Of a DNA stretch of 41,507 bases, positions 3,613 through 30,900 are shown one piece after another. The notes under the pieces were generated by a model. The model was given only the letters and a program-made list of their open reading frames with translations. It was not told where the DNA came from and made no database searches. The stretch spans positions 1 through 41,507 of the forward strand of contig JAQIBG010000037.1 of the NCBI GenBank assembly GCA_027859175.1, written 5' to 3'. The DNA comes from Planctomycetota bacterium. Lineage in GTDB: Bacteria; Planctomycetota; UBA11346. Both the position numbers and the translations under genes were made by a program. How positions within the stretch are numbered: position 1 is the stretch's first letter; each line of letters starts with the position of its first letter.

Positions 3613-4815
3613 CTAGGGCTGGGGCAGCGCTGCGCGTTGCAGGCGGCCGCCGCGATACGCGAGGTAGGCGTAACTTTGGGAGATCGCCAAGCAATTGGCG
3701 GGGCTGCCTTCCGGTAGCGTGCCCAGGCTGACCCATTCGGCATCGCGTAGAACCATGATCTGCTGGACGATGGCCTCGTCAGGCTTGCCGCGGCGGGTTG
3801 CGAGCGCGTAGATGGTGTCGCCATCGGCGGCCATATCGGTGACCAGCCACGGCGCTTCAAGAGGGAGGGCCTGAGCGGCCGGCGGCTGAATGCTGGTTAT
3901 CAACCAGCTATACCCAGCGGCTTCCACCACCAGGCCAGCCTGGCAGGCCTCAAAGCTGTTGATGGCCAGGGTGCTGGCGTAGACATCAACGCCCGGATGC
4001 GGCGGGAGCAAATCTTGCGGGATTTGGTGAACGGCTTGCCAGTGCGCATCCTTGCCGGTGCCATTCACCGTGATCATCCACGGCACCGTGTCGTTGGGGA
4101 TCATGTTGGCTTGAATCGCGGCCATCACGTCGCCGCCCTTTTTGATCGCGGCTTTGATGTCGAAGCCCTCTTTGGTTTTCAGGCTGTAGGTGGTGGCGTA
4201 GAGTTGATCGCGCCACGGGATGTAGCGGTGATAGAGGGCGCGCGGCCATTCTTGTTGTGCCTGATAAGATTGCCAGGTGGCGCCGTCGTCGTAGCTGACG
4301 CGCATCGATGGCCACGGCGGCTTGCTGTGGCCATAGCTGCACCACCACACGCCATCGTGTTTGGTGATGTCACGATTGTGGGCGTCGCCACTGGGGCGCT
4401 GCACGGTCAACTCACCCTCGCGCGTGATGCGAAACAGGAAGGCATTGGTGCCGATGGGGTCGTAGTCGACAATGGCGAGTTCGGTGCCGAGATCATTGAG
4501 CACGAACGTTTTTTCGATCGGCCAGCGTTTGGGCTGGCCGGCATCGTCACGCACGCAGTCGAAACTGCCCGTGGCCAGATCGTACCACAGGATGACCTGC
4601 TTGACCTTGGTGTTGGTGGTGCCGTGGGCGATGTAGAGCCGCTCGCCAAACACGGCGAGGTCGTCGACTAACTTCTTCTCGGAGGGCTTCTGATAGAAGG
4701 GCTCCAAGAAATTGCCCAGGTCTTCCAGCGCCAACTCGCTGGCCGGGCTGGGGGTCATGGCCAGTACCAGCGCGGTGGTCAGAATAGACTGGATGAAGGT
4801 GCGCGAGCGTTGCAT
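3613..4815 (-). CDS. Exported protein of unknown function, probable beta-propeller
   Basis: A 400-residue protein with a signal peptide (FIQSILTTALVLAMTPSPAS, cleavage near residue 26). The body contains repeated segments of the kind LYIAHGTTNTK, VRDDAGQP, RVSYDDGATWQSY and DTIYALATRRGKP. S/T-x-D-x-G-x-T-W is the Asp-box of sialidase-like and related propellers, and one copy (SYDDGATW, about residue 173) is clear. A secreted or periplasmic propeller that binds or cleaves glycans is plausible, but no catalytic set was identified. First gene of the leftward group, divergent from the guanidine operon. The ribosome site before 4815 is weak. Confidence 0.7.
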   Translation of the reverse strand: MQRSRTFIQSILTTALVLAMTPSPASELALEDLGNFLEPFYQKPSEKKLVDDLAVFGERLYIAHGTTNTKVKQVILWYDLATGSFDCVRDDAGQPKRWPIEKTFVLNDLGTELAIVDYDPIGTNAFLFRITREGELTVQRPSGDAHNRDITKHDGVWWCSYGHSKPPWPSMRVSYDDGATWQSYQAQQEWPRALYHRYIPWRDQLYATTYSLKTKEGFDIKAAIKKGGDVMAAIQANMIPNDTVPWMITVNGTGKDAHWQAVHQIPQDLLPPHPGVDVYASTLAINSFEACQAGLVVEAAGYSWLITSIQPPAAQALPLEAPWLVTDMAADGDTIYALATRRGKPDEAIVQQIMVLRDAEWVSLGTLPEGSPANCLAISQSYAYLAYRGGRLQRAALPQP

Positions 4816-4974
4816 GGGTGCAGCCTAGGCTCTCAGCCGAAAACTGCAGCTATTGGCGCTTGGGGGCGAAACGGGGTGTGTTGGCGCTGTTTTGCGGGCC
4901 ATAGTGACAAATGTTTACACAGACCGCGGGCGCTAAGTCGCTGATGAGCAACTGCTTGCGGCACGCGCTGGGGT

Positions 4975-5053
4975 ATTGTTGCAGCGTGCAGCATTGAAGG
5001 CTGCGCAATGCGCCACAATCAGGACCAAGCCACACGGCTTTGACAGATGACCA
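4975..5053 (+). promoter_or_regulatory. Leader and presumed promoter region of the guanidine operon
   Basis: The 463-base gap between the divergent genes (4816-5278) holds no gene. The riboswitch starts at 5054, so the promoter must lie upstream of it. TTGAAG (about 4995) followed by ACAAT is the best sigma-70-like pair I can see, with suboptimal spacing. GCAGC/GCTGC arms just before it can form a small hairpin. Weak support; placed here mainly by exclusion. Confidence 0.25.
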
Positions 5054-5096
5054 CGAGTGGGACGACCCGCTCGTTGTACCGTTACGGGACGGCCCG
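5054..5096 (+). ncRNA. Guanidine-II riboswitch (mini-ykkC), copy 1
   Basis: Two hairpins each present an ACGR tetraloop on a GGG/CCC stem, the defining feature of the guanidine-II class. P1 (5054-5073) is an 8-bp stem with loop ACGA. P2 (5085-5096) is CGGG-ACGG-CCCG. The linker is 11 bases and contains GTACCG, which is also present in copy 2. The class binds guanidinium and turns on guanidine transport or degradation genes. It sits 183 bases before the binding-protein ATG, at the head of exactly such an operon. Two loops plus context make this call strong despite the tiny aptamer. Confidence 0.93.
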
Positions 5097-5117
5097 GTGC
5101 ATGGCCGTTCCGTTCCA

Positions 5118-5161
5118 GCGGTGTCCCCCGGCTGCGTGCCGGTCCACATCGGGAACACCGC
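5118..5161 (+). promoter_or_regulatory. Hairpin downstream of riboswitch 1, candidate expression platform
   Basis: GCGGTGTCCC (5118-5127) pairs with GGGAACACCGC (5151-5161) with one bulged A, enclosing an inner CCGG/CCGG hairpin. It lies 22 bases after the aptamer and about 120 before the start codon. No U-tract follows, so a classical terminator is not evident; it may act on RNA stability or on Rho. How it connects to ligand binding is unknown. Confidence 0.4.
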
Positions 5162-5278
5162 ATGTACCAAGCCCAGTCTTATCACCACAGTCTACCCCGC
5201 ATTGCGATGCGCGGTCGATCATCCCATGGCCCGGCGGCGTGCGCTGCTGCGGTCAGCATGTCCAGCCCAGGAGAATCC

Positions 5279-6268
5279 ATGCATAGCTTTCGTACGCTCA
5301 TTCTGACCCTTGTGGTCCTCGCCCTCGCCGCCGCCTTTGCGCCGCGCATCCAGGCCGCCGAACCGCTCAAGATCGCCTACTCTGATTGGCCGGGCTGGAT
5401 CGCCTGGGAAATCGCGATCAATAAGAAGTGGTTTGAGGAAGAGGGCGTCGAGGTCGAGTTCTCGTGGTATGACTACGTGGCCTCGATGGACGCCTACGTG
5501 GCCGGCAATGTGGACGCCGTGTGCATGACCAACGGTGATGCCCTGGTTACCGGCGCCACCGGCAAGCCCTCGGTTGGCATCATCATCAACGACTTCTCCA
5601 ACGGCAACGACATGCTGGTGGCGGCGCCGGGGATCAAAACCATCGCTGACCTCAAGGGTAAGAAGATTGGTCTCGAAGAAGGCTTCGTGCCGCATCTGCT
5701 CACGCTCAAGGCCTTGGAGAGCGCCGGTCTTAGCGAAAAAGACGTGACCATCGTTAACACGCCCACCAACGAAACGCCCCAGGTGTTAAAGTCGGGTGCG
5801 GTGTCAGCGATTGCCGCTTGGCAGCCCAACTCAGGCCAAGCGCTCAAGGCGGTAGACGGTTCCAAGCCGATCTTCACCTCTGCCGATGCGCCCGGTATTA
5901 TTTACGACCTGCTGTACGTCAGCCCTGAGAGCTTGGCCGCCCGCAAGGACGACTGGCAAAAGGTGGCGAAGGTGTGGTACCGCGTAGCCGAGTTCCTCAA
6001 AGACGAAGACAATCTCGACGAAGCCCTGGCGATTCTGGCCGCGCGTGTTGAGATCAGCCCCGAGGAATACGAGCCCTTCTTCAAGGGCACCTACATCCTC
6101 AGCCTCGAAGAATCGCTGGCCGCTTGGAAGAAGATGGACGGCCTCAAGAGCGTCTATGGCTCGAGCGTCGTGTCGGATCAGTTCAACGTGAAGTATGGCG
6201 TTTATGAGAAGTCACTGGCGACCGAGCAGTACCTCGATCCCAGCCTGACCGAAGCCTTGGCCAAGTAA
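5279..6268 (+). CDS. ABC transporter substrate-binding protein (NMT1/TauA-like), guanidine operon
   Basis: A 329-residue periplasmic binding protein. The start at 5279 is chosen over long upstream in-frame ATGs because AGGAGA lies 6 bases ahead and a signal peptide then begins the protein ([15 protein letters not shown], cleavage near AQAAE-like residues 25-27). The mature part has the nitrate/sulfonate/taurine binding fold: [10 protein letters not shown], an aromatic-rich ligand cleft (W, Y, W near 35-60), and the [13 protein letters not shown] segment typical of the NMT1 family. Known gene neighbourhoods of this type accompany guanidine carboxylase operons, so guanidine or a guanidine derivative is the likely cargo; urea or another small nitrogen compound is the alternative. 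First gene after riboswitch 1; a strong hairpin separates it from the permease gene. Confidence 0.88.
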
Positions 6269-6281
6269 GGGCCCTGTGATG

Positions 6282-6307
6282 GCGGGAGGGTCGTTCGGCC
6301 CTCCCGC
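6282..6307 (+). terminator. Intra-operon hairpin after the binding-protein gene
   Basis: GCGGGAGGG (6282-6290) and CCCTCCCGC (6299-6307) form a perfect 9-bp stem with an 8-base loop, 13 bases past the stop codon. The following bases contain only a short T run (TGTTTGG). It fits a partial terminator or 3'-end stabiliser that keeps binding protein more abundant than membrane subunits. Confidence 0.6.
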
Positions 6308-6342
6308 TGTTTGGTCGCTATTGCATACCCCGAGGTGATTGT

Positions 6343-7728
6343 ATGCCTGCACCACGCACGCCGTGGTTGGCGATCCGCACTGAGCTGCCGGCTCGGCGAC
6401 GCCTGCTCCTGTCGGTTTTGTCGTTCTTGATTCCGCTTGGCCTGTGGTGCCTCGTGGCCTACGTGCCGCCGTTTCGCTGGCACCCAGACGTCAAGCTCGA
6501 ACTGAGCGCGATCAGTGGCGAGATTTCCGCGGTGTACACCGCTGGTGACCGTCTGGGTCGCGAGTTCTATCCTGAGTTTCAGCGCTTGATTCGCGACGAG
6601 AATGCGGCGGTGTTGGCGGCGCGGTCGGCGGGTGATCCGCTGATCGTGAGTCGGCGTGCCAATCAAAAGCTCCTGCGGCAGCTGGCACCGATCGGCATCG
6701 CGCATGGTTGGATCAGCGATGAGCAGGGCCAAGACGACGCCGCGCTGTATCATTTGTGGCGGGATTTGGCGACCGGCGCCAAGGTCACCACCAGCCCCGA
6801 ACTCAGCGACGAAAATAAAATGGTGGTGGTTGCCAATTGGGCGGTGCTGGGGGCGTCTAGTCCGGATTACTTATCGCGCGCAATCCCCAAGGAGGCCTTG
6901 CTGAAGCTGGTGCCGCAGGGGCGTTCGTCGACCCCCGTGTATTTGCCGGCGCCGCACGAGGTGGCGGTGGCCGGGTGGGCCGACCTGTGGGCGGAGCCCA
7001 AGGGCGACAAGCCGAGCATGTGGCAGCGCCTTGGTGACTCGATGGTCATCGTATTTGGTGGTTTCTTGCTTGCGGCGCTGATCGGGGTGCCGATCGGGAT
7101 TTTATGCGGAACCTTTGATTTCGTGTCGCGCTTGGTGGAGCCATTCGTTGATTTCTTTCGGTATTTGCCGGCGCCAACTTTCAGTACCTTGCTGGTGGCG
7201 GTGTTCCTGGCGCACGATGCACCCAAGGTGGCTTTGGTGTTTGTGGGTACGGTGTTCCAGTTAGTGCTGGTGGTGTCGAAAACCACGCGCTTGCTTGATG
7301 GCAGCCTGCTTGAGGCGGCGGCCACGCTTGGCGCCAATCGGCGTCAGTTGTTGGGGCGGGTGATTCTGCCAGGCATTTTGCCCAATCTGTATAACGACCT
7401 ACGGATTCTCCTCGGTTGGGCCTGGACTTGGTTGGTGATCGCCGAGTTGATCGGGGTCAAGTCGGGTCTGACCGAATTTATCGATACCCAGGGTCGCTAT
7501 CGCAACTTTGAACGGGTATTTCCTGTTATCATTCTGATTGGCGTGGTCGGTTTCCTGACCGATCAGGTCTTGGCCTGGGCCGGGCGCTTCTTGTTCCCCT
7601 GGGCCGGTGCTGGCCCTGGTCCAGCCAGTCGCGCTTTGGGCCGAGTGGTGACGTGGTTCCCGCGCTGGGTCCACAGTGATCGGGTCGATCCCCTGCACGT
7701 CGCGCGGGAAGCGAAGGAGACGCCATGA
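6343..7728 (+). CDS. ABC transporter permease (TauC/SsuC-like) with long N-terminal insert
   Basis: A 461-residue inner-membrane permease. The ribosome site GAGGTGAT precedes the ATG. A first membrane segment lies at about 22-45. It is followed by roughly 180 hydrophilic residues (50-225), which usual 250-residue TauC-type permeases lack. The ordinary permease core then begins near 235 and carries the coupling motif [12 protein letters not shown] at 324-335 for contact with the ATPase. The insert is predicted to face the periplasm and might help dock the binding protein (inference). The TGA overlaps the ATG of the ATPase gene (ATGA at 7725-7728), so the two are translationally coupled. Same operon as the riboswitch-led binding protein. 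Confidence 0.88.
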
Positions 7729-8621
7729 GCAGCACCATAGACCTGCCCGATTATCGCGACTTGCCCGAATCGGTACGTGCGCACATGGCGGCCTTGAAGG
7801 AACGCCCGGTGGTGCTCGAGGTCAAAGAGCTGGAACGCAGCTTTGAGAGTCCCGGCGGCCCTGTGCATGCGCTCAAGGGTATCGATTTCCAGGTTCACCG
7901 GCGTGAATTCATCGCGGTGATCGGCGCTTCAGGCTGCGGCAAGTCGACCTTGATCCGTTTGCTGGCCGGGCTCGACCATCCCACTGGCGGCCAGGTTTTG
8001 CTCGACGGCAATGCGATCACAGGGCCAGGCCCCGAGCGTGGGATGGTGTTCCAGGGCTATACGCTGTTCCCGTGGCTGTCAGTGCTCGGCAATGTGATGT
8101 TTGGCCCCAAGATGCGCGGCGCCGGCGATCGACGCGCCGAGAGCGAGGCCCGCCAGTGGATCGAGATGGTCGGCTTGAGCGACTTTGTTGACGCCTACCC
8201 GAGCCAGTTGTCTGGCGGCATGAAGCAGCGCGTTGCGATCGCGCGTGCGCTGGCCAACGAGCCGCGCATCCTGCTGATGGATGAGCCGTTCGGCGCGCTT
8301 GATGCGCAGACGCGTGGCAAATTGCAGGCGCATCTGTTGCAGATCTGGCGCCAGGTCAACCTGACGGTGTTGTTTATTACCCACGACCTGGAAGAGGCGG
8401 TGTATCTGGCCGATCGGATCCTGGTTCTGGGTGCACGCCCTGGTCATGTGCAAGAAATCATCGATGTGCCGGTGCCGCGCCCGCGCCGCCCTGATCAGTT
8501 CCTGAGTCCGCATTTCTTGTCGTGTCGCCGCCGAATCGAAGAGTTGATTCATCCGCGTCACGACAGGGACGAACTGCCGATTCCCAAGCTTACTGCGGTG
8601 GGTGACGAGGTCGATTCGTGA
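7725..8621 (+). CDS. ABC transporter ATPase (TauB/SsuB-like), guanidine operon
   Basis: A 298-residue nucleotide-binding subunit. Motifs are Walker [10 protein letters not shown] at 67-75, Q-loop Q110, signature LSGGMKQR at 162-169, Walker B ILLMDE at 182-187 with catalytic E187, D-loop ALD and H-loop H220. About 30 extra N-terminal residues precede the family core. It powers uptake by the permease with which it overlaps. A second riboswitch follows its stop, so its level relative to the catabolic genes can be set separately. Cargo is inferred from context as guanidine. Confidence 0.92.
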
Positions 8622-8703
8622 ACGAGCTGCGGCTCGCTTGTGGCAATAAGCTCGCCCTTGCCAGCGCGACATGGCGCGGCAGCATTGCGAGTAACATTCA
8701 ACC

Positions 8704-8747
8704 CCAGACGGGACGACCCGTCTGGTGTACCGATCCGGGACGGCCCG
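8704..8747 (+). ncRNA. Guanidine-II riboswitch (mini-ykkC), copy 2
   Basis: P1 (8704-8725) is a perfect 9-bp stem closing an ACGA loop, GGG-ACGA-CCC at its tip. P2 (8736-8747) is CGGG-ACGG-CCCG. The linker again contains GTACCG. The element lies in the 186-base gap between the ATPase gene and the first DUF1989 gene, 61 bases before the ATG. Bases near the ribosome site (CGCGA before CAGGAG, about 8791) can pair with TCGCG at about 8764, which may be the switch for translation. A small CGAGC/GCTCG hairpin (8623-8636) follows the ATPase stop. The rest of the gap shows no gene. Confidence 0.93.
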
Positions 8748-8807
8748 CTGTGAGCAGGCCGTCTCGCGTTGTTTTAGCATCGGTCGGCTCCGCGACAGGA
8801 GTGTGTA

Positions 8808-9521
8808 ATGAGTGCGATTATCTATGATGAGATCTTGCGTGGTGGCGCGATGTGGTCGATGCGTCTCAAGCGTGGCTATCGTCTTCGCCTAACCGACATC
8901 GACGGTGGCGCCAATCTGTCGCTGATGTTGCATAACGCCGAGCAGCCGCTCGAACGCTATAATATGCCCGACACCCTCAAGGGGCAGCATACCGCTCACA
9001 TCACCACCGGGTGCTGTCTGTATTCAGATATGGGCCGGGTATTGATGAGTGTGGTGTCTGACGATCTCGGCTGGCATGACACCGTCACCGGTTGTTCCAA
9101 TGCCGCCTCGGTGGTTCGCAAGTACGGCACCAAAGGCTACCAGGAACATCGCAACGATTTTCATCGCAATGCCTATGACAATTTCCTGACCGAACTCGGC
9201 AAGTATGGCCTCGGTGAGCGCGATATGACGGCCACGCTCAACCTGTTCTCGAAGGTGCAGACCGACGAGGCCGGTGCGCTGCATTTCGTCGCGGCGCATT
9301 CACCTGCTGGTGCCGGCGTCACCTTGCGTGCCGACATGAATGTGTTGGTGACCGCCACGGCGGTGCAGCATCCGATGCATCCGGGCGCTGCTTACGATCC
9401 CAAGCGGGTTGGCATCACCGTGTTGCGGGGCGAGGCCGCTGTGCCCGCTGACGATGTCTGTCGCGCGCGTTGCGATGAGAACGACCGCGCCTTCGCCAAC
9501 ACCGAACTGTACTTTGCCTGA
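8808..9521 (+). CDS. Carboxyguanidine deiminase subunit (DUF1989, urea-carboxylase-associated, first of pair)
   Basis: A 237-residue DUF1989 protein. Segments typical of the urea-amidolyase-associated family are [44 protein letters not shown] and [11 protein letters not shown]. Family members named for urea metabolism have been shown in other bacteria to be, as a heteromeric pair, deiminases that turn carboxyguanidine into allophanate and ammonia; that role is applied here by family and context. Conserved Cys and His suggest metal or catalytic use, but I cannot assign residues. CAGGAG precedes the ATG. It directly follows riboswitch 2 and is 11 bases from its partner. Cytoplasmic; no signal peptide. 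Confidence 0.9.
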
Positions 9522-9532
9522 GGGGGTCTGTC

Positions 9533-10186
9533 ATGAGCACCGTTTGTGAAAGTCAACTCGATCCTGCCGCTGCCGTTTTCGATTACGAAATGCCTGCGGG
9601 TACCGGCTGGATGCACGCCCTCAAGCAGGGCCAGATTTTCCGCATTGTTGACCTCGAAGGCAATCAGGCGGTAGACACCTTGTTCTACGACAGCCATGAC
9701 CCGGCCAATCGCTACAGCGCGACCGATACGATTCGCGAGCAAGGCGGCATTTATTTGACCACGGGCACCCGTTTATTGAGCGTGCGCGGCGATGACTTGC
9801 TGACCATTGTGGCCGATACCTGTGGGCGCCATGACACCCTCGGTGGTGCCTGCGCTGCCGAGTCCAACCAGGTGCGCTATGACCTTAAGAAGAAGTGGAT
9901 GCACAATTGCCGCGATAACTCCTTGCTGGCCTTGGCTACCGATCCGCTTGGCGCTGGCATGGGCAAGCGCGATCTGACCCACAATATCAACTTTTTCATG
10001 AATGTGCCGGTGACTCCAGATGGTGGGCTGAGCTTTGCCGACGGCATCTCGGCGCCCGGGCGCTATGTTGAATTACGGGCTGAGCGCGACATCACCGTGT
10101 TGGTGTCGAACTGCCCCCAGCTGAACAACCCGTGTAATGCCTATAATCCGACCCCGGCGCGGATGCTGGTGTGGGATCCGGCCTGA
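9533..10186 (+). CDS. Carboxyguanidine deiminase subunit (DUF1989, second of pair)
   Basis: A 217-residue DUF1989 protein, paralogous to its upstream neighbour but shorter. Landmarks are [55 protein letters not shown] and the C-terminal [25 protein letters not shown] provides the ribosome site. Its TGA overlaps the carboxylase ATG (TGATG at 10184-10188), the usual coupling in these operons. It is expected to form the deiminase with the preceding gene product, acting directly on the carboxylase product. Function comes from family knowledge and gene order; no assay-level evidence is visible. Confidence 0.88.
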
Positions 10187-13100
10187 TGTTCAGCAAAGTA
10201 CTGATTGCCAATCGCGGCGCGATCGCGTGTCGTATCATTCGAACCCTGCGCGCCATGGGTGTGGCCTCGGTGGCAGTGTATTCTGATGCCGATCGCCACG
10301 CGCGTCATGTTGAGTTGGCCGACGAGGCCGTGCGCATTGGCCCGCCGCCGGTGGCTGAGAGTTACCTGTCTATCGACGCCATCCTCGCGGCGGCCAAACA
10401 AACGGGCGCCGAGGCGATTCATCCTGGCTATGGCTTCTTGAGCGAAAACCCCGATTTCGCCACGGCCTGTGCTGAGGCCGGAGTGGTATTCATTGGGCCG
10501 ACGCCCGAACAGATGATCGCCTTTGGTCTCAAGCATGAGGCGCGCGCACTGGCCGAAGCCCTGGGTGTGCCGCTGGTGCCAGGCAGCGCTTTGCTGCAAG
10601 ACGAGACCGCGGCGGTGACGGCGGCCGATGCCATCGGCTACCCGGTGATGCTCAAGGCTACCGCAGGTGGCGGCGGCATTGGCATGCGGGTATGCGCATC
10701 GCAGGCCGAATTGCGCGAGGCCTTTGCCGCGGTGAAGCGTTTGGCTGGCGGCAACTTTGGCCACGATGGGGTATTTGTTGAGAAATATATCGAGCGCGCG
10801 CGGCACCTGGAGGTGCAGGTGGTAGGTGACGGTCTCGGTGGCGTGGTTGCCCTGGGGGAGCGCGACTGCTCGGTACAGCGACGCAATCAGAAGGTGATCG
10901 AAGAAAGCCCTGCACCCGGCCTCAGCCCGGCGCGTCGTAGCGAGTTGATCGACGCTGCGGTGAAGATGACGCGCGCGGTGCGCTATCGCAACGCTGGCAC
11001 CGTCGAGTTTGTGTACGATGTGAGCGCCGATGCGTTTTACTTCTTGGAGGTGAACTGTCGCCTTCAGGTGGAGCACGGCGTTACCGAAATGGTGACCGGC
11101 GTTGATCTGGTTGCGTGGATGTTGCACATCGCCGCAGGCGACACCGCGTGTCTGAGCAGCTACGATCACGCGCCGCAGGGCCATGCGATTCAGGCCCGCG
11201 TTTACGCGGAAGATCCCGCGCGCGATTTCCAGCCGGCGGCGGGCTTGGTGACCCGCTTCGCCACGCCCGAGGGTGTGCGCTGTGATCACTGTTTGGCCGA
11301 CGGTATTGATGTGCCGGCTTTTTATGATCCCCTGATCGCCAAGATAATCGTGCACACGGCAGATCGTGAAAGCGCGCGTAAGCAGTTGCGCGATACGCTG
11401 AGTAATCTCGAGCTGCACGGTATTGAGGCCAACCACACGTGGCTGGCGCACGTGCTTGAACAAGACGTGTTCACCGCCGGCGAGCATCACACGCGGTGGC
11501 TGGCCGACGTGCCCTGGCAGCCGCTGTCGATCGACGTGCTGCGCCCTGGCACCCATTCAAGCGTGCAAGACTGGCCAGGGCGTGAGGGCTATTGGGACGT
11601 GGGCGTGCCGCCCTCTGGGCCGATGGACGATCTGTCGTTCCGTGTTGGCAATCGTCTGCTCGGGAACGATGAGGCCGCGGCTGCTCTTGAATTGACCATG
11701 AGTGGGCCGCGTTTGCGCTTCAATGCGCCCGGCGCGTTCTGCCTGACGGGCGCGCGCATGAGCGCGACCCTGGATGGTGAGGAGGTCCCGCAGTGGACCG
11801 TGGTGCACGCCGCGGCTGGCGCGGTGCTCGATCTGGGTACGGTTCAAGACGCCGCCTGTCGGACTTATTTGTGTGTCGCCGGTGGTATTGATGTGCCGCC
11901 GTACTTGGGTTCGCGCAGCACGTTTGACCTTGGTGAATTCGGTGGTCACGGTGGTCGCGTATTGCGAACCGGCGACGTGTTGCGACTTGGTGCATGCGCG
12001 GCCTTGCCGCCGATACAGTCGGCGCCCGAGCAATTGCAGCCACACTACGGGCACCATTGGGATGTGGGCGTGTTGTATGGCCCGCATGGCGCGCCTGACT
12101 TTTTCACCGACGAGGACATCGACGCGATCTTCGCCGCGGATTGGAGCGTTCACTACAACTCCAATCGTACCGGCGTGCGTCTGATTGGCCCCAAACCAAC
12201 CTGGGCGCGTAGCGATGGCGGCGAGGCGGGTTTGCACCCGTCTAACATTCACGACAACGCCTACGCGGTCGGCACGATTGATTTTACCGGTGATATGCCG
12301 GTGATTCTCGGGCGTGACGGCCCGAGCCTGGGTGGCTTTGTGTGCCCAGCGACCGTGGTGGCGGCCGATTTTTGGAAGATCGGCCAGGTGCGGCCTGGTG
12401 ATACGATTCGCTTTCATCGCCTGAGCCAGGACCAAGCGGTGGCCTTGGAGCGCGATCAGGATGCTGCGATTGCGGCGCTCGGTTCCCTGCCGCCCACGCC
12501 CACCGTGATAACCGCGCCAATCGCTGAAGACTCGCCCATTCTGGCGCGACGCGAAGATGGCCCCGATGGGCAGTCGGTTACCGTGCGACGCGCTGGCGAC
12601 CGTTATCTTTTGGTTGAGTACGGCGACAATATTCTCGACATCAACCTGCGGATGCGGGCCCATACCTTGCAGCAGGCTCTGGCGGCTGATCGCCCCGCTG
12701 CGCTGCGCGAGATGGTGCCGGGGATTCGCTCTTTGCAGCTGCGCTATGATCCGCAGCAGCTTGATCAGCAAGACTTGGTTGATCATGTCATGGGCTTACA
12801 GAATCACTTGCCCTCGGTTGACGAGGTGGTGATTCCGAGTCGTATTGTGCACTTGCCCTTGAGCTGGGACGATCCGGCGACCCGCGAGGCGATCGAAAAA
12901 TATCAAAAGTCAGTGCGGCCCGATGCGCCGTGGTGCCCGTCGAACATTGAGTTCATTCGGCGCATCAATGGTCTGGATGACGAAGAGGCGGTACGCAAAG
13001 TCCTGTTCGGCGCCAACTACTTGGTGCTCGGTTTGGGTGACGTGTACTTGGGTGCCCCGGTGGCAACGCCGGTCGATCCGCGTCACCGTTTGGTCACCAC

Positions 13101-13815
13101 CAAGTACAACCCAGCCCGCACCTGGACCGCGCCCAACTCGGTTGGGATCGGCGGTGCCTATCTGTGCATCTACGGGATGGAGGGGCCCGGCGGTTACCAG
13201 TTTGTGGGTCGCACCTGTCAGGTGTGGAATACCTATCGCGAGACTAAACGCTTCACGCCTGGTCATCCGTGGTTGCTGCGCTTCTTCGATCAGATCCGTT
13301 GGCACGAGGTCAGCCATGACGAGCTGATGGAATTTCGGCAGGATTTCTTGCACGGCAAGGTCGACATCAAGGTCGAAGAAACCACCTTTGACTTGGGGGC
13401 CTACAATCGCTTCCTGCGCGACGAAGCCGACTCGATCGCGGACTGGAAGAACCACCAGCAAGCAAGTTTTGAGGCCGAGCGCCAACGTTGGATCGATCAG
13501 GGCCTGGCGACTTATGTCAGCGAGATTCCCGACGTGCCAGCGGAAGATAGCAACACGGCCATTCCGGATGGCGCGATTGGCGTAGACACGCCGATTCCAG
13601 GCTCGGTGTGGCAATTGCCGGTCAGCATTGGCGACGAGGTCGGCGAGGGCGATGCCCTGGTGGTGATCGAAGCGATGAAAATGGAAACACGGATCGACGC
13701 ACCGTGTGCGGGGCGCGTGGTCGATATTCGCTGCCGCGAAGGGGCGCCGGTCAACGCCGGACAATGCCTGGTGGTGCTCGAGTCTGTTGAGTCTGGTGTG
13801 TCACCGCTGGTCTGA
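10186..13815 (+). CDS. uca: Biotin-dependent urea/guanidine carboxylase
   Basis: A 1209-residue multidomain carboxylase of the length usual for urea carboxylase. The start at 10186 is chosen because of the TGATG overlap and the family opening KVLIANRGAIACRI. Order of domains: biotin carboxylase (about 1-450) with the glycine-rich ATP loop KATAGGGGIGM and active-site NCRLQVEH; carboxyltransferase made of the two allophanate-hydrolase-like (KipA/KipI) halves (about 460-1080), including DVYLGAPVATPVDPRHRL and GGAYLCIYGMEGPGGYQFVG; and a C-terminal biotinyl domain with biotin site K1165 in EAMKMET. It uses ATP and bicarbonate to carboxylate the substrate. Riboswitches, the deiminase pair and Gdx point to guanidine as the real substrate; the urea label is historical. 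A carboxyltransferase active-site alignment would settle this. Confidence 0.94.
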   Translation: MFSKVLIANRGAIACRIIRTLRAMGVASVAVYSDADRHARHVELADEAVRIGPPPVAESYLSIDAILAAAKQTGAEAIHPGYGFLSENPDFATACAEAGVVFIGPTPEQMIAFGLKHEARALAEALGVPLVPGSALLQDETAAVTAADAIGYPVMLKATAGGGGIGMRVCASQAELREAFAAVKRLAGGNFGHDGVFVEKYIERARHLEVQVVGDGLGGVVALGERDCSVQRRNQKVIEESPAPGLSPARRSELIDAAVKMTRAVRYRNAGTVEFVYDVSADAFYFLEVNCRLQVEHGVTEMVTGVDLVAWMLHIAAGDTACLSSYDHAPQGHAIQARVYAEDPARDFQPAAGLVTRFATPEGVRCDHCLADGIDVPAFYDPLIAKIIVHTADRESARKQLRDTLSNLELHGIEANHTWLAHVLEQDVFTAGEHHTRWLADVPWQPLSIDVLRPGTHSSVQDWPGREGYWDVGVPPSGPMDDLSFRVGNRLLGNDEAAAALELTMSGPRLRFNAPGAFCLTGARMSATLDGEEVPQWTVVHAAAGAVLDLGTVQDAACRTYLCVAGGIDVPPYLGSRSTFDLGEFGGHGGRVLRTGDVLRLGACAALPPIQSAPEQLQPHYGHHWDVGVLYGPHGAPDFFTDEDIDAIFAADWSVHYNSNRTGVRLIGPKPTWARSDGGEAGLHPSNIHDNAYAVGTIDFTGDMPVILGRDGPSLGGFVCPATVVAADFWKIGQVRPGDTIRFHRLSQDQAVALERDQDAAIAALGSLPPTPTVITAPIAEDSPILARREDGPDGQSVTVRRAGDRYLLVEYGDNILDINLRMRAHTLQQALAADRPAALREMVPGIRSLQLRYDPQQLDQQDLVDHVMGLQNHLPSVDEVVIPSRIVHLPLSWDDPATREAIEKYQKSVRPDAPWCPSNIEFIRRINGLDDEEAVRKVLFGANYLVLGLGDVYLGAPVATPVDPRHRLVTTKYNPARTWTAPNSVGIGGAYLCIYGMEGPGGYQFVGRTCQVWNTYRETKRFTPGHPWLLRFFDQIRWHEVSHDELMEFRQDFLHGKVDIKVEETTFDLGAYNRFLRDEADSIADWKNHQQASFEAERQRWIDQGLATYVSEIPDVPAEDSNTAIPDGAIGVDTPIPGSVWQLPVSIGDEVGEGDALVVIEAMKMETRIDAPCAGRVVDIRCREGAPVNAGQCLVVLESVESGVSPLV

Positions 13816-13858
13816 GCCGGTTGATGCCGGCACAGACCGTGTCAGGAGGAGCTGTGGT

Positions 13859-14182
13859 ATGGTGTGGATCTGGTTGATTGCCTCAGGCATCTCTGAGATC
13901 GCGTGGGCCGCAAGCCTGAAACAGGCCAAGGGCTTCACCGATCTGTGGTGGAGCGTGGCGGCCGTGATCACCACTATCACCACGGTGTTCACCTTGAGCC
14001 AGGCGCTGAAGGGGCTGCCCTTGGGCCTCGCCTATGCGGTATGGACGGCAGTGGCTGTGATCGGCACTGCCGGCGTGGCCCTGGCCACTGGTGAGCGCTT
14101 TTCGTTTTTACAGCTGTGCTGTGTAGCGGCGATTGTGGCCGGCGCGGTGGGGCTCAAGGTTTTGACGCCGGAGTCACCATGA
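13859..14182 (+). CDS. sugE: Small multidrug-resistance family protein, SugE/Gdx-type guanidinium exporter
   Basis: A 107-residue protein with four membrane segments, the exact SMR size. The start at 13859 follows GGAGGAG by 6-7 bases. The essential proton/substrate glutamate is E13 (ISEIAWAASLK). The SugE/Gdx branch is recognised by this W-A-x-x-L-K context and by GLAYAVWTAVAVIGTAG. Gdx members exchange guanidinium out for protons in and are commonly under guanidine riboswitches. Here the gene sits inside the catabolic operon, 43 bases after the carboxylase and overlapping allophanate hydrolase (ATGA at 14179-14182). It probably vents excess guanidinium. A quaternary-ammonium exporter is less likely in this context. 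Confidence 0.92.
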   Translation: MVWIWLIASGISEIAWAASLKQAKGFTDLWWSVAAVITTITTVFTLSQALKGLPLGLAYAVWTAVAVIGTAGVALATGERFSFLQLCCVAAIVAGAVGLKVLTPESP

Positions 14183-15939
14183 GTATTCCTGAGGAAATGT
14201 CGATCCAGGCGCTGCGCAGCGCCTACGCCGCCGGTCTGCAACCGGCAGATCTGGTCAGCGAACTGCTGCGCCGGATTCAGACCTATGACGATCCGGCGCT
14301 GTTTATTTATCTGCTGTCTGAGGCTGAGTTGCTGGCCCAGGCCCTGGCGCTGAGCAGTCAGGACGCGAGTAGTCTGCCGCTGTATGGCATCCCCTTTGTG
14401 GTCAAAGACAACATCGACCTGGCTGGTGTGCCGACTACGGCTGGCTGCCCAGCCTTTGCGCAGACGCCAAGCGAATCGGCGCCGGTGGTTCAGGCTTTGC
14501 TTGATGCTGGCGCGATCTGCTTGGGCAAAACCAATCTGGATCAGTTTGCCACTGGCTTGGTCGGGACGCGTTCGCCCTATGGCACGCCGCGCAACCCGCA
14601 TCATCCGGAATATATTCCAGGTGGATCAAGCTCAGGCTCTGCCGCTGCCGTAGCGGCCGGCTTGGCGAGTTTCGGCTTAGGCACCGATACCGCTGGCTCT
14701 GGCCGCGTGCCGGCGGCCTTCTGCGGCCTGGTGGGCTGGAAGCCAAGTCGTGGCCTGCTCAGCACGCGCGGCGTGGTGCCGGCGGTGGCGAGTCTCGACT
14801 GCGTGTCGGTGTTTGCCCGCACGGCGGCCGATAGCGCTGCGGTGCGCTCGGTGGTGGCGGGCTTTGATCCGGCAGATCCTTTCGCGCGCGCCGCCCCGGA
14901 GGGGGGCAGCGCCAGGCCGCAGCGGATCGGCGTGCCGCGGCCGGGGCAGCTTGACTTTATGGGCGATGCCGCCGCGCAGGCGGCCTACGCGGCCGGTTGC
15001 GAAGCGTTGGCGGCCTGCGGCTGCGAATTAGTGCCAATTGACTTTGCGCCCTTTAGCGAAACCGCCGAGATGCTGTATGGCGGCCCGTGGGTTGCCGAGC
15101 GCTATGCCGCCGTGGGGCGCTTTGTGGAGCATCGCCAGGCCGACTGTGACCCCAGCGTGGGCGGCATCATCGTCGCCGCCAAAACCATCACGGCGGTGCA
15201 AGCCTTCGAGGCCGATTACCGCTTGCGGGCCTTGCGCCGCGCGGTGGAGCCAGTGTGGGGCGAGGTCGACGCGATTGCTGTCCCCACCACGCCAACCATC
15301 TACACGCGCGCTGAAATCGCAGCCGATCCGGTCGGCCTCAACTCGATTCTGGGCCGCACTAATAATTTTGCCAACCTGCTCGACCTGTGCGCCGCGGTCT
15401 TGCCCACGGCGCCAGGCCGCGATGGGCTGCCAACCGGGCTCACCGTGTTGGCGCCGGCCTTTGCCGATGTCGGCGTGTTGAGTGTGGTGCAGGCCGCACA
15501 CCGTCACACCGGCGCCGGAGTGGCCACGCCAGCCGAGCGCGCGCAGGCTCTGAGCGATGACCCGATTGAGCTCCTAGTGCTGGGCGCGCATCTGCGTGGC
15601 GAGCCGCTCAATCATCTCCTGACGCAGCGCGGCGCGCAGTTCCGGCGCGAGGTGAGCACGGCCGCCTGCTACCGCCTGGTGGCCATTCCTGGCGCGATGC
15701 CCAAGCCAGGCATGTACCGCGTTGACGGTTCGGGCGCATCTATCGCCGGCGAAGTCTGGGCTCTGTCGCCAGCAGCCTTGGGCGCCATCGTTGCCGAGAC
15801 GCCAGCACCGCTTGGTTTCGGATCAGTAGAGTTGGCCGACGGTAACCGCGTCACTGGCTTTGTCTGTGAGGCCGACCAAGGCCGCGACTACGAAGACATC
15901 AGCGCCTATGGCGGCTGGCGCGCTTGGCTGGCCCGCTAG
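14179..15939 (+). CDS. atzF: Allophanate hydrolase (AtzF-like)
   Basis: A 586-residue enzyme. The start at 14179 overlaps the exporter stop (ATGA). The amidase-signature domain (about 1-440) has the Ser-cisSer-Lys triad K76 (VVKDN), S150 (GGSSSGS) and nucleophile S174 (GTDTAGSGR). The C-terminal domain (about 450-586, starting ELLVLGAHLRGEPLNHLL) is the AtzF-type domain that completes breakdown of the amidase product. Together they convert allophanate to two ammonia and two CO2. It is the last gene of the guanidine operon and completes nitrogen release. Many bacteria fuse or pair it with the carboxylase; here the exporter gene separates them. Confidence 0.95.
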   Translation: MSIPEEMSIQALRSAYAAGLQPADLVSELLRRIQTYDDPALFIYLLSEAELLAQALALSSQDASSLPLYGIPFVVKDNIDLAGVPTTAGCPAFAQTPSESAPVVQALLDAGAICLGKTNLDQFATGLVGTRSPYGTPRNPHHPEYIPGGSSSGSAAAVAAGLASFGLGTDTAGSGRVPAAFCGLVGWKPSRGLLSTRGVVPAVASLDCVSVFARTAADSAAVRSVVAGFDPADPFARAAPEGGSARPQRIGVPRPGQLDFMGDAAAQAAYAAGCEALAACGCELVPIDFAPFSETAEMLYGGPWVAERYAAVGRFVEHRQADCDPSVGGIIVAAKTITAVQAFEADYRLRALRRAVEPVWGEVDAIAVPTTPTIYTRAEIAADPVGLNSILGRTNNFANLLDLCAAVLPTAPGRDGLPTGLTVLAPAFADVGVLSVVQAAHRHTGAGVATPAERAQALSDDPIELLVLGAHLRGEPLNHLLTQRGAQFRREVSTAACYRLVAIPGAMPKPGMYRVDGSGASIAGEVWALSPAALGAIVAETPAPLGFGSVELADGNRVTGFVCEADQGRDYEDISAYGGWRAWLAR

Positions 15940-15973
15940 AAACTCATCCTGCACGCTCAGTCCTTAGAACCGC

Positions 15974-16003
15974 GGGCGGCCTCACTTGTGAGCGAGGCCA
16001 CCC
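15974..16003. terminator. Stem-loop between convergent genes
   Basis: GGGCGGCCTC (15974-15983) pairs with GAGGCCACCC (15994-16003) with one mismatch and a 10-base loop, 35 bases after the allophanate hydrolase stop and just past the SDR stop on the other strand. There is no T-tract. Position between convergent genes suggests a transcript end for one or both. Confidence 0.45.
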
Positions 16004-16011
16004 GATAGGGC

Positions 16012-16764
16012 CTATTGGGCCGTGAAGCCGCCATCGACGTTGATGGCTTGCCCGGTGGTGAAGCTGTTGGCGGGGTCGGCCAGCCACAGCACGGCGCTGG
16101 CAATTTCTTCGGGTTTGCCGGCGCGCCCGACGGGATGCAGCGATGCCATCATGTCTTGGGTTGCTTTATCGGCGGCGAAGCGGCCATACATTTCGGTTTC
16201 GATCGCGCCTGGGCCAACTGCGTTGACGCGGATGCCGCTCTTGGCGTACTCAAGGGCTGCTCCCTTGGTGAAGCCGATCACGGCATGCTTGCTGGCGGTG
16301 TAGATGGACATGCCTTGGAAGCCGACAACGCCGGCGATCGACGAGTTGTTGATAATAGACCCGCCACCAGTTTTCAGCATCAGGGGGATCTGGTGCTGCA
16401 TGCTGACCATGACGCCGCGCACGTTGATGTCGAAAACGCGCTGGTAGTTATCGACGGTCGACGTGTGCAGGGGGACAAACAGGTCGCCTTCAATGCCAGC
16501 ATTGTTGAAGGCCGCATCGAGGCGTCCGTAGGTACTCTCGGTGGTATCGATTAGACGTTTGATCTGATCGACGTCGGCGACGTCGGTTTGCACGAAGGTG
16601 GCTTCACCACCGGCGTCATTGATGGTGGCGGCAACGGCCTCGCCTTTGTCGGCACGACGCCCGGCAAGGACGACGCGATAGCCGGCTTTGGCAAATGTTT
16701 GGGCCGTAGCAGCACCGATGCCAGAGGTGGCACCAGTGACGAGGGCAACGCGATCATGGCTCAT
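16012..16764 (-). CDS. Short-chain dehydrogenase/reductase (SDR, classical)
   Basis: A 250-residue classical SDR. The cofactor loop T10-G-A-T-S-G-I-G17, NNAG at 87-90, N114, S142, Y155 and K159 (YTASK) make the complete catalytic tetrad. R36-R37 after the second strand fits NADP preference. The C-terminal INVDGGFTAQ is usual for the glucose-1-dehydrogenase/3-oxoacyl-reductase-like group. GGAG precedes the ATG by about 8 bases. It converges on the guanidine operon and diverges from the kinase gene, so nothing nearby reveals the substrate. Confidence 0.9.
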   Translation of the reverse strand: MSHDRVALVTGATSGIGAATAQTFAKAGYRVVLAGRRADKGEAVAATINDAGGEATFVQTDVADVDQIKRLIDTTESTYGRLDAAFNNAGIEGDLFVPLHTSTVDNYQRVFDINVRGVMVSMQHQIPLMLKTGGGSIINNSSIAGVVGFQGMSIYTASKHAVIGFTKGAALEYAKSGIRVNAVGPGAIETEMYGRFAADKATQDMMASLHPVGRAGKPEEIASAVLWLADPANSFTTGQAINVDGGFTAQ

Positions 16765-26226: not shown

Positions 26227-27402
26227 ATGCATGACATGAGCCATGGCGATGAACGGATCTGCACCGAGCAGCAGCGCGTGGCTGGGCGATTGCTCGCCCA
26301 GATGGTGCGCGGCGAGCTAGCTCCAGGTACCCGTCTGCCGGCCGAGCGCGATCTTGCAAGCCGCTTTGAGGTCAGCCGGCGCACCGTCAACCTGGCGTTG
26401 GAACTCCTTCAGGAACAGGGGCTTGTGCATCAGGTGTCGCCTCGCATTCGCCACGTTGCGGACGACATCACGGCTCGCCTGAGCGCCATGCGAGCTCAGG
26501 CGGTGGTGATTCGATCGCGGCGCTATGAGCCCTGCGAGCCCGGTAGTGACGACGCCATGGCCGATGATGTGATCGCTGGGATTCGCGACCAGGGCTTCGA
26601 GCCCCTGATCTATCACCCCGAGGATCTTGACCGCGAGCACCTGCGTGCCTTGGTGACCCGGTCACCGGTGAGCTTGGTGCTGCTTGGGCAGGCCGCCAAT
26701 ACCCCGGCCGGACAGGCGGCGGCGCGGGAGTTCCTTGCCATCGAGGTGCCCGTGGTGGGCTATACCGACGTGATGCGGCATGACGCGGCGGCTGATTTTC
26801 CGGTCGATCGCGTTCAGTCTGACCAGCGCGCTGGCGGCCGCCTGGTGGCCGAGCGCTTGATTACGGCCGGCGCCAAGCGCTTGTTGCGGTTTTGGGATGT
26901 GGACAGCGCTTTTGAAGCCCCGCAGCACTGGTTGTGCGAGCGTGATGCCGGCGTGCTGGAGGCGCTGGCGGCCGCAGGTTTGCCGGTAATTGCCCCGCCT
27001 GATCCGGTACGGGTTGCTAACGGTACTGATCCGAGTCGGGCTGCGTTTGATCGCATGGTTCGCATCGTGGCAGGTTTTCTGGCCGAGTACCTTCTTGCTG
27101 AAAACCCGGTCGATGCGGTCCTGGCCAAGTCTGATAAAGAATTTATCTACGTGGCTGCGGCGTGCCGCCTCCTCGGCCGTGAGCCGGGGCGTGATATTTT
27201 GATCACCGGCTATGATCACACTTTGCATCGCTATCCGGAACTGCGCTGGGAGCCCGCGCGGCCCTTCGTGACGGTTGACAAACGGATGGGTGCTATCGGC
27301 CGCGCTATGCTGACCCTCATGAACGAGCGCGTTGCCGGCACTCTGACCGGGCCGCCAGTCACTCGCACACTCGAACCCGAACTGGTGCTCACTAAGCACT
27401 GA
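26227..27402 (+). CDS. GntR-headed regulator with LacI-type sensor domain, paralog 1
   Basis: A 391-residue transcription factor. The N-terminal winged helix (about 14-80) is GntR-like: LAPGTRLPAERDLASRFEVS, then RRTVNLALELLQEQGLVHQV. The remainder is a LacI/periplasmic-binding-like sensor (PVVGYTDV, VQSDQRAGGRLVAERLI, ILITGYDH). AAGGTGAG precedes the ATG. It shares architecture and clear similarity with the regulator at 35506-36702 (both keep RMVAGFL/RIVAGFL and YVAAACxLLG). It heads the unit hypothetical-glycoside hydrolase-prepilin, so it likely controls that unit in response to a sugar. Ligand and operator are unknown. Confidence 0.88.
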   Translation: MHDMSHGDERICTEQQRVAGRLLAQMVRGELAPGTRLPAERDLASRFEVSRRTVNLALELLQEQGLVHQVSPRIRHVADDITARLSAMRAQAVVIRSRRYEPCEPGSDDAMADDVIAGIRDQGFEPLIYHPEDLDREHLRALVTRSPVSLVLLGQAANTPAGQAAAREFLAIEVPVVGYTDVMRHDAAADFPVDRVQSDQRAGGRLVAERLITAGAKRLLRFWDVDSAFEAPQHWLCERDAGVLEALAAAGLPVIAPPDPVRVANGTDPSRAAFDRMVRIVAGFLAEYLLAENPVDAVLAKSDKEFIYVAAACRLLGREPGRDILITGYDHTLHRYPELRWEPARPFVTVDKRMGAIGRAMLTLMNERVAGTLTGPPVTRTLEPELVLTKH

Positions 27403-27917: not shown

Positions 27918-27968
27918 CCACTGCCCCGGGCTTATTGCCCCGTAGTCACCCATTTGAGAGGAAGTCTG

Positions 27969-30900
27969 ATGACGACCCTGCGCTTCGCCCTGCTCCTGAC
28001 TGTGTGTGCCCTTATCGGTGCTCAGGAGGCCTCGTTACAACTGAGCCCAGTTGAGAACTGGCGTCTGACGACGCGCAGTGGCAGCCCGAGTTGGGCCCAA
28101 CTGGAGTATACTGCTGACGAAACGCGGGTGCGCATCGCCGAGCGAACGCGGGGCTTTGAGCTGCGTTTGAGTAGCGCTGACGCGTCGATGAATTTACCGA
28201 TCTTGTCGGCAATGACGTTCAGCTGCGATCTCCGTGCTGGTGTTGGTCTTGCGATGCGCGTGGTAGTCCGCGATGCACTCGGTGAAAGCCTGGTGTTCGC
28301 AGACCAGCCGCTGGCACTTGGGGTCAATAACTTACGTTGGGATCTCATCGGCGTGGAGGCTGAAAATAGTTGGGGCGGCAAGCGCAACTTGCGTCTCGAC
28401 GGTACGCTTGCTCAGTTGGTCCGCTTTGAGTTGGTTCGCGATGAGGATGTTGACGATCCGGTTGTGGATCTCACGATTGGCGAGGTGCGCGCCCACTGCC
28501 TGGCTGATCCGGTGGCGGTGCTGCAGGTTGATGTGGATACCGGTACGCCCTACCACGTGCTGCGCACCGATCGCAACGACCGGCTTGCGCTGGTGGTGCG
28601 CAATCCGAGCGATAGCACCGTGACGGCACAGGTGGCGCTGCGCGTTGAAGGGGTTGACCGCAGCGTGCAAGAGCCGCAGCGAGAGCTGACGATCGCAGCT
28701 GGTGAGACCATCCGCTGGGAAGATTTTGTTACCGTTTCTGGCTATGGTCAGTGGTTCGTTGACTACAGCTTACGTGCAACCGATAGCGACAAGTCGGTCA
28801 AAGGGCTGCTGTCATTTGCGCGGATGCAGCCGGCTGGACCAACGCCGTTCAGGCGCGAGGGGTTCCAGTTTGGTGTCAACGGCGGAATCCCCGAAAACGG
28901 ATCGAGTGCCAAGATGGATAGCGCTGCTGAGGCCATTGCCATCGCCGGGATCAAAGTCGTGCGGACTTCTTTGGTCTGGGAGGCCCTTCAGTATGGCGGC
29001 CGCAAGTCTTGGGCGATGGAGAAGGTTGCTGACTACGGGCGGATGATAGACGCCGCGCAGGCGCAGGGGATAGAGTGCCAGGTTTTGCTCGGCTATGGCG
29101 TGCCATGGAATGCACCGGAGGCAGACCAGAAATCAGGCCATCGAGCGGATTGGCAGTTCTCTCCGCCCAATCATGGCGACATGCAGGCGTGGCTCGATTA
29201 CGTCAACCTGATGGTGACCACCTTTGGTGACCGGGTGCGCTACTGGGAAGTGTGGAACGAGCCTGATTTATGGCACTTCTGGCAGGGCTCGAGCGATGAC
29301 TATATTGAATTATTGCGCACCACCTACCAGGCGATCAAGGCCAAGGACCCGGCGCATCAAGTGCTCACCGGTGGGTTCGCGCTTCTCGATGGGCATGGCG
29401 GTCACAAGGAGCCGGGTTTCCAGCGGAATGTGTGCGTGAAGGCCGAGCCCTATTACGATATTTTAGCGCATCACCGGCATGGCCATATTGATGGCTTCAT
29501 GCGCGAGGTCGACGGGCCGCTGGCGGCGATTCGTGCTGAGTTGAAGGATCCCGCCAAGCCGCTGTGGTTTAACGAGACTGCGATCAATACACCGGATGAT
29601 CGCTATCGCGCCCAGGCGGCGGGTTTGGTCAAGAAAATTACTTTTGGCTGGTCGCGCGGCTCCAGTGGTCATGTGTGGTATCAGATGATCTCGGGTGATC
29701 TGAGTCTGCAATCGCGTCGCAAGTGGGGTTTGATGGCCTCTGGTCATTACCCCAAACCGAATTACGTGGCCTACAATGCGCTGGTCCATCAGTTGGGTCA
29801 GCAACGGCACGATGTGGTGTTCGAGCGCAGTGGTGATCGGCGTGCCCTCGGCTTTGCGCCGATGGCCGAGAACGGCGGCGATTACGTGACCGTGCTGTGG
29901 GACGACTACGCTTGGCAGCCACAGGATTTGGTCACGCTGGCGGTGGGCGAATCGAGCGTGTCGGTCGTTGACATGATGGGGAACGCCGCGCCACTTGCTG
30001 TGCATCAGGGCGTGGTGGTCCTCGATAGTAGCCTGTATCCGCGCTATCTGCGTTCATCTGGCGCGCAGCGCCCACAGGTGCTGGCGCCGATGGTGTCGCT
30101 TGGCGAGCGTTTGACTGCCGCCGCACCAGGGCGCGATTACGCGTTGGCAGTGCGTTTGCAGAATCCCTTGGCGGCGCCGATAAGTATCGACTTCACCTGG
30201 TTTGCGGTGCCTGGGGTGGCTGACGGCAGTGTCACGGCACGCGTCGTGGTGCCGGCCGGTGGCGAGGTCGTGGAAGCCTTCGCGCTCCCGATTGCAGCCG
30301 ATTTTGATCTCCCCTATGGCGACTTTCATGATCTGCACCTGCAGTACGCCGTTGCTGACACCCCGTGGCGCGGGACCCTGACGGTGCCGCTGGAGCCAGC
30401 GGTGATGGCGGGTGTTGAGCCTGACCGCGCTGCGGACGTGGTACTTGAGGAGTACCGCTACGTGCGCAATCGCTTTGAGAATAACCCGGGTAGCGACCAC
30501 TTGACCTGGCAAGGGCGCGATGACTTGTCTTTGCAGGCGTGGTTTACGCGGCGCGATGATGCCCTGGAAGTGCGCGTGGCGGTACGTGATGAGCAGTACA
30601 GCAGCGTGGCTGGCGACTGGGGTCAGAGCGACTGCGTTGAGGTTATGGTGGCGCCTGCGGTCGACCAGGGTCGGCGTATGGGTATCGCCCATCAGGACGG
30701 CGACACCGTGACGCTCCGTGGTGACCTCGCTGAACAGGGAGCAACGGTCACCATGACCACAGAGCCTGGCTTGCGGAATTATACCTTCACGGTGCCCCTG
30801 GTCGCCTTCGGTGCCGATGCCGACGTCTTGGCGGACGGCTTTCGAGTCAATATCGCGGCCCGCGATCGCGATGGTGACAACTTCAAGGGCTGGATTCAGA

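Follow-up and report, generated by a model that had tools for sequence, protein, structure and literature searches.

Two guanidine-II riboswitches precede the import and catabolic genes of one planctomycetal guanidine carboxylase cluster

A 41,507-nucleotide stretch of DNA from a Planctomycetota bacterium, analysed here in full and referred to as the window, carries on its forward strand a cluster of genes separated by short gaps, which we named with NCBIfam models. The cluster opens with an ABC transporter comprising a substrate-binding protein of the SsuA/urea type (SBP; 5279–6268; TIGR03427, E = 2e-47, and TIGR01728, both below the curated cut-off), a 461-residue permease (6343–7728; TauC/SaoP-like, below cut-offs) and a nitrate/taurine-type ATPase (7725–8621; TIGR01184, E = 1e-72). 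After an intergenic region of 186 nt (8622–8807) come the catabolic genes: cgdA (8808–9521; UAAP1, carboxyguanidine deiminase subunit, DUF1989; TIGR03425, 315.8 bits against a cut-off of 206), with a Shine–Dalgarno (SD) sequence AGGAG at 8797–8801; cgdB (9533–10186; UAAP2; TIGR03424, 323.8 bits, cut-off 285); the urea/guanidine carboxylase gene (10186–13815; TIGR02712, 1816.9 bits, cut-off 1304); a small SMR transporter resembling SugE/Gdx (13859–14182; PF00893, E = 4e-18; the SugE model fits best, below its own cut-off); and allophanate hydrolase (14137–15939; TIGR02713, 691 bits, cut-off 511). As judged from these matches, the gene content corresponds to a complete guanidine carboxylase pathway, as described before with these genes (PMC12508155, PMC12186494), plus an importer and an SMR protein. 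UAAP1 and UAAP2 are the CgdA and CgdB subunits of the literature (PMC12508155), and the term deiminase pair, used for them in an earlier, sequence-only reading of this DNA, was right in substance. Import, export and breakdown genes all lie in one cluster, with the SMR exporter gene placed within the catabolic operon and overlapping the start of allophanate hydrolase by 46 nt. Further along the window, two long open reading frames (ORFs) on opposite strands (27954–30971, forward; 33128–35761, reverse) seem paralogous by eye, and each has a GntR/LacI-type regulator-like ORF near it (26227–27402 and 35506–36702).

An Rfam 15 cmscan of the whole window, in which the gathering cut-off for guanidine-II (mini-ykkC, RF01068) is 32 bits, placed two matches on the forward strand: an outer one at 5054–5096 in the leader of the transporter genes (36.1 bits, E = 9.5e-4) and an inner one at 8705–8747 in the leader of the catabolic genes (40.0 bits, E = 1.1e-4). 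The sequence-only reading had claimed two complete mini-ykkC elements in one cluster, the first before the transporter and the second before the deiminase pair, and had proposed the covariance model as a check; both copies pass the cut-off, and they precede the ABC transporter (5279–8621) and the carboxylase genes (8808–15939), respectively. The window yielded no third match above any gathering score and no class I guanidine switch, and the same scan of the 5.6 Mb assembly returned RF01068 at these two sites only. Each copy comprises two hairpins with ACGR tetraloops joined by a short linker, and the loops (ACGA in P1, ACGG in P2) and the linker (GTACCG) are identical between them, as had been noted. 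The outer aptamer folds into P1 at 5053–5074 and P2 at 5085–5096, the inner into P1 at 8704–8725 and P2 at 8736–8747. The inner P1 had been called longer and perfect; it is perfect, with no wobble (8704–8712/8717–8725), but it is not longer, as the outer P1 also has 9 bp (5053–5061/5066–5074), one of them a U–G wobble. The suggestion that import and breakdown respond to different guanidine levels leaned on that extra length and has no support here, thresholds being beyond what sequence alone can show. The CgdA start codon lies 103 nt downstream of the start of the inner aptamer and 60 nt downstream of its end, and the 186 bases once given as the distance between aptamer and deiminase pair are the length of the intergenic region. 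Both copies lie, as expected of RF01068, upstream of genes for guanidine transport and metabolism (transporter, CgdA/B, carboxylase, SMR protein and allophanate hydrolase), and are best taken as genuine guanidine-II riboswitches that would bind guanidine here too.

Beyond the aptamer, the two copies have in common a downstream hairpin that consumes P2. In each, the segment directly after the aptamer is complementary to the entire 5′ arm and loop of P2, and minimum-free-energy (MFE) folding and a stem search define a hairpin of 11 bp at 5084–5113 in the outer copy (5084–5094 pairing with 5103–5113) and of 10 bp at 8736–8766 in the inner copy (8736–8745 pairing with 8757–8766). In both copies, unconstrained folding absorbs P2 into this alternative hairpin (z = −3.5 and −3.8), at a predicted gain of 11–14 kcal/mol over the P2-enforced structure, and in prefix folding P2 appears transiently before the competitor strand is transcribed. 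Stems this long occur in 0.3–0.7% of random 40-nt genomic segments (0.7% for the inner copy) and in about 2% of dinucleotide shuffles of the same segments. Directly 3′ of the inner hairpin lies a U-rich tail, CGUUGUUUUA (8767–8776), resembling that of an intrinsic terminator, in which UUGUUUU forms a U-tract with one G interruption; 8-mers with at least six T occupy 0.1–0.2% of positions. The outer 11-bp stem is followed by UCCAGCGG and lacks the immediate U-tract that marks an intrinsic terminator. In the inner region a terminator scanner listed just a short inner variant at 8749–8768, and its overall yield, 14 terminators against 10.5 expected from shuffles, is uninformative as a whole.

We screened 49 other guanidine-II leaders (21 from the family of the window, 28 from Gammaproteobacteria and other families). 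In none of them does the P2 loop fall within a stem of 8 bp or more that encloses a loop of less than 20 nt; the two longest stems among them have loops of 31–33 nt. The genus of the window is represented by one genome in the comparison set, and the two hairpins of the window may share a common origin, in which case they would amount to a single observation. The window copies resemble RF01068 members generally in their two ACGR-loop hairpins, their scores above the cut-off and their position before guanidine genes, but differ in the consumption of P2 and in the distance to the gene: the start codon follows P2 by about 10–26 nt in other guanidine-II leaders (Gammaproteobacteria and other families of the phylum), compared with 60 nt for cgdA and 182 nt for SBP, well outside the spacing of a canonical translational platform.

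Among the 23 family genomes compared, a set that widening the search to the order did not enlarge (relatives are denoted below by G numbers and loci by L numbers), 10 contain guanidine-II, each with at least two matches; an RF01068 match in G159 (L087), probably due to chance, was omitted. In G243, G159 and G009, tblastn with the window proteins located one copy before SBP and a divergent copy before cgdA. G129 has the same two copies and a third between SBP and permease (L094:11726–13812, L095:1435–1477), and divergent pairs also occur in G271, G060, G113 and G262, with other genes behind some copies. The window copies thus appear to follow a recurring plan in which import and catabolism each have a switch of their own, in tandem where those of the relatives are divergent. 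In named gammaproteobacterial clusters, the importer or cgdA is preceded by a class I switch, and the carboxylase by a pair of hairpins resembling class II. In trees of the carboxylase and of CgdB, the window genes group with proteobacterial ones, nearest to those of a Nevskiales metagenome-assembled genome (L032) and outside the family's set, and horizontal exchange of the pathway is therefore likely. Given these trees, the architecture of the relatives may not be ancestral for the window cluster, so we claim only that it recurs, and not that the tandem layout arose by direct inversion of a divergent ancestor.

Some copies in the relatives (L091:5542–6714, L093:651–1400 and L090, reverse strand, before position 2250) lie directly upstream of other genes, encoding a Rieske oxygenase (PF00848/PF00355), a creatininase-family protein (PF02633) and an ORF that looks like glutamine synthetase by eye, with no Pfam match in the frame tested; these neighbours hint that methylguanidine, creatinine or other guanidino compounds are used. 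At two loci (L089:12697–13341 and L092:2198–2860), the interval between a guanidine-II copy and cgdA encodes, on the opposite strand, a hydrophobic protein that matches no Pfam family, and the leader would thus be antisense to this gene over about 600 nt.

Where the target gene is distant, the leaders of the relatives usually have, 9–18 nt after P2, an ATG that opens a short ORF, 27–78 codons long where the case is clean. The stop of this ORF overlaps the target start as ATGA in seven of the eight leaders tested, against 0.5 expected from shuffled leaders (P about 3e-9, in shuffles that ignore phylogeny); these are the SBP leaders of G009, G159, G243 and G262, the cgdA leaders of G159 and G243 and the permease leader of G296 (loci L097, L098, L099, L090 and L096 for G243, G159, G009, G262 and G296, respectively). 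The SBP leaders of G113, G129 and G271 presented no clean case and stand outside the test; with them counted in, the fraction is 7/11. A possible leader ORF of 61 codons was also traced behind the outer aptamer (5101–5286, forward), its stop overlapping the SBP start in ATGCATAG at 5279–5286; with a null frequency of 0.09 it is not significant alone and draws its support from the pattern in the relatives. A leader-peptide function was rejected, as the peptides have no similarity by eye and codon-position bias is weak (GC3 of 0.68, pooled). The layout is known from Mycobacterium tuberculosis ppe2, which lies behind a B12 riboswitch and requires for its expression an upstream ORF with an AUGA overlap (PMC11260477). 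The guanidine-II leaders of the relatives share this layout on a different aptamer class; the outer copy of the window fits it loosely.

A TGGCAC-N5-TTGC element recurs upstream of the aptamers in the relatives. Scored with a simple weight matrix of sigma-54 consensus weights, 13 of 20 of their leaders have a sigma-54-like site of at least 10 bits 18–65 nt upstream of the aptamer, where a genomic rate of 1.8e-4 per position would predict about 0.2; rpoN, encoding sigma-54, is present in 22 of the 23 family genomes, that of the window included. These upstream elements (L089–L099) suggest that guanidine sensing is combined with nitrogen control. In the window, a candidate promoter for the inner copy, the −24/−12 element TGGCAATAAGCTCGCC (8641–8656, forward), lies 49 nt before the aptamer; it has the exact spacing and scores 9.3 bits, with TCGC for TTGC, which makes it weaker than the sites of the relatives (P about 0.066 for a best site anywhere within 250 nt and about 0.013 within their 18–65-nt range). 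The same matrix finds no sigma-54-like site upstream of the outer copy, and a scan of 4800–16100 for sigma-70-type promoters was uninformative (3 found, 2.8 expected). A second promoter before cgdA thus has moderate support. Because the copies of the relatives are separate, usually divergent and mostly equipped with sigma-54-like sites, and because the inner copy has such a site, if a weaker one, we favour two transcription units, each probably induced by guanidine. That the cluster may be two transcripts had been raised before; the relatives speak for it, although the inner site is weak.

We propose, at even chances, that each guanidine-II switch leads its own transcription unit, the outer that of the importer and the inner that of the carboxylase pathway, and that both are ON switches operated by the P2-consuming hairpin. 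P1 and P2 would form first as the RNA emerges. With guanidine present, they would dock loop to loop and P2 would persist; with guanidine absent, the strand made next would pair with the whole 5′ arm and loop of P2 to form the 10–11-bp hairpin. In the inner copy, this hairpin and UUGUUUU would constitute an intrinsic terminator before cgdA, at which transcription would stop. In the outer copy, the hairpin would block expression by weak or factor-assisted termination, or by masking the start of the leader ORF.

Each part of this proposal has a competitor. The inner copy could be an ordinary translational switch that controls the ribosome-binding site of cgdA, with the hairpin as its unbound conformation and the U-tract incidental. 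This is the published model for guanidine-II (PMC12186494, PMC9094411), and a CUCC–GGAG hairpin does cover the cgdA SD sequence in most folds; yet forming P2 did not change SD accessibility consistently (0.22 without P2; 0.24, 0.48 and 0.19 with P2 at three fold lengths), and P2 and the start codon are 60 nt apart where about 10–26 nt is usual. We consider this explanation rather unlikely, and a model in which P2 releases the SD sequence was not adopted, the effect of forcing P2 having varied with fold length. As forced P2 does not consistently free the ribosome-binding site, termination is favoured for the inner copy, and we suggest with moderate confidence that it acts by transcription attenuation through exchange of P2 and terminator. 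For the outer copy, control could instead be exerted on the leader ORF (5101–5286), with SBP made by termination–reinitiation at the overlap, much as in the B12-controlled ppe2 (PMC11260477) and in line with the ORFs found in seven of the eight tested leaders of the relatives. Here the AUG follows P2 by just 4 nt, compared with 9–17 nt in the relatives that have the overlap, the overlap is 8 nt rather than 4 nt, such an ORF is unremarkable in the window alone, and forced P2 does not free its start in folding; this route is doubtful.

Two further explanations concern the pair as a whole. One long transcript beginning upstream of 5054 could carry both switches, the inner serving as a second checkpoint that tests guanidine again and corrects read-through. 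All genes do lie on one strand with short gaps, Vreelandella boliviensis has an operon that begins with a class I switch and contains a class II switch internally (PMC12508155), and the gammaproteobacterial clusters above are similarly arranged; against this, the family relatives keep their copies in divergent units that have sigma-54-like sites of their own, and cgdA is set off by a 186-nt gap, wider than any other in the cluster, in which the candidate promoter lies. We consider a single transcript rather unlikely. The copies had also been read as duplicates, which is conceivable but weakly supported: they share the linker and the downstream hairpin, whereas their P1 arms differ. GTACCG argues little for duplication because it recurs in the copy in the Rieske leader of G262 and the P1 arms differ, and we do not accept it as proof. 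That the pair is a recent tandem duplicate of which one member is decaying and non-functional, as linker and hairpin might suggest, is very improbable: both copies exceed the RF01068 cut-off, both P1 stems are fully paired with differing sequences, and the family as a whole retains separate copies.

The preferred reading, of two separately transcribed, hairpin-operated switches, has partial precedents. Guanidine carboxylase operons of V. boliviensis and enterobacteria begin with a class I switch and carry a class II switch further inside (PMC12508155, PMC12186494). They match the window in combining two guanidine switches with an ABC transporter, cgdA/B, carboxylase and allophanate hydrolase in one cluster, but pair class I with class II, the latter before the carboxylase, whereas both window copies are class II and precede the importer and cgdA. 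Two guanidine switches per cluster are therefore already published in the form of class I plus class II; two class II copies with a P2-consuming platform are new. In guanidine-IV, one aptamer loop lies inside the terminator stem and the ligand prevents the terminator from forming (PMC7736828, PMC12186494), a likeness to the proposed inner mechanism that extends to mechanism only, the aptamer family being different. Since reviews describe guanidine-II as translational (PMC12186494, PMC9094411), attenuation by such a hairpin would be new; a P2-consuming platform was not found described for guanidine-II in the literature covered. Our wider proposal, that guanidine-II can act as an attenuator in which P2 provides the 5′ half of a terminator, and that leaders in the family drive ATGA-coupled ORFs under sigma-54 promoters, is tentative and falls somewhat short of an even chance.

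The window places the smallest guanidine sensor twice in one pathway. If the terminator reading is true, guanidine-II would take part in transcriptional control, a role undescribed for the class in the literature covered, and the ATGA-coupled ORFs of the relatives would extend control by a riboswitch plus an upstream ORF, recently seen for B12, to a different class of riboswitch in a different bacterial lineage.
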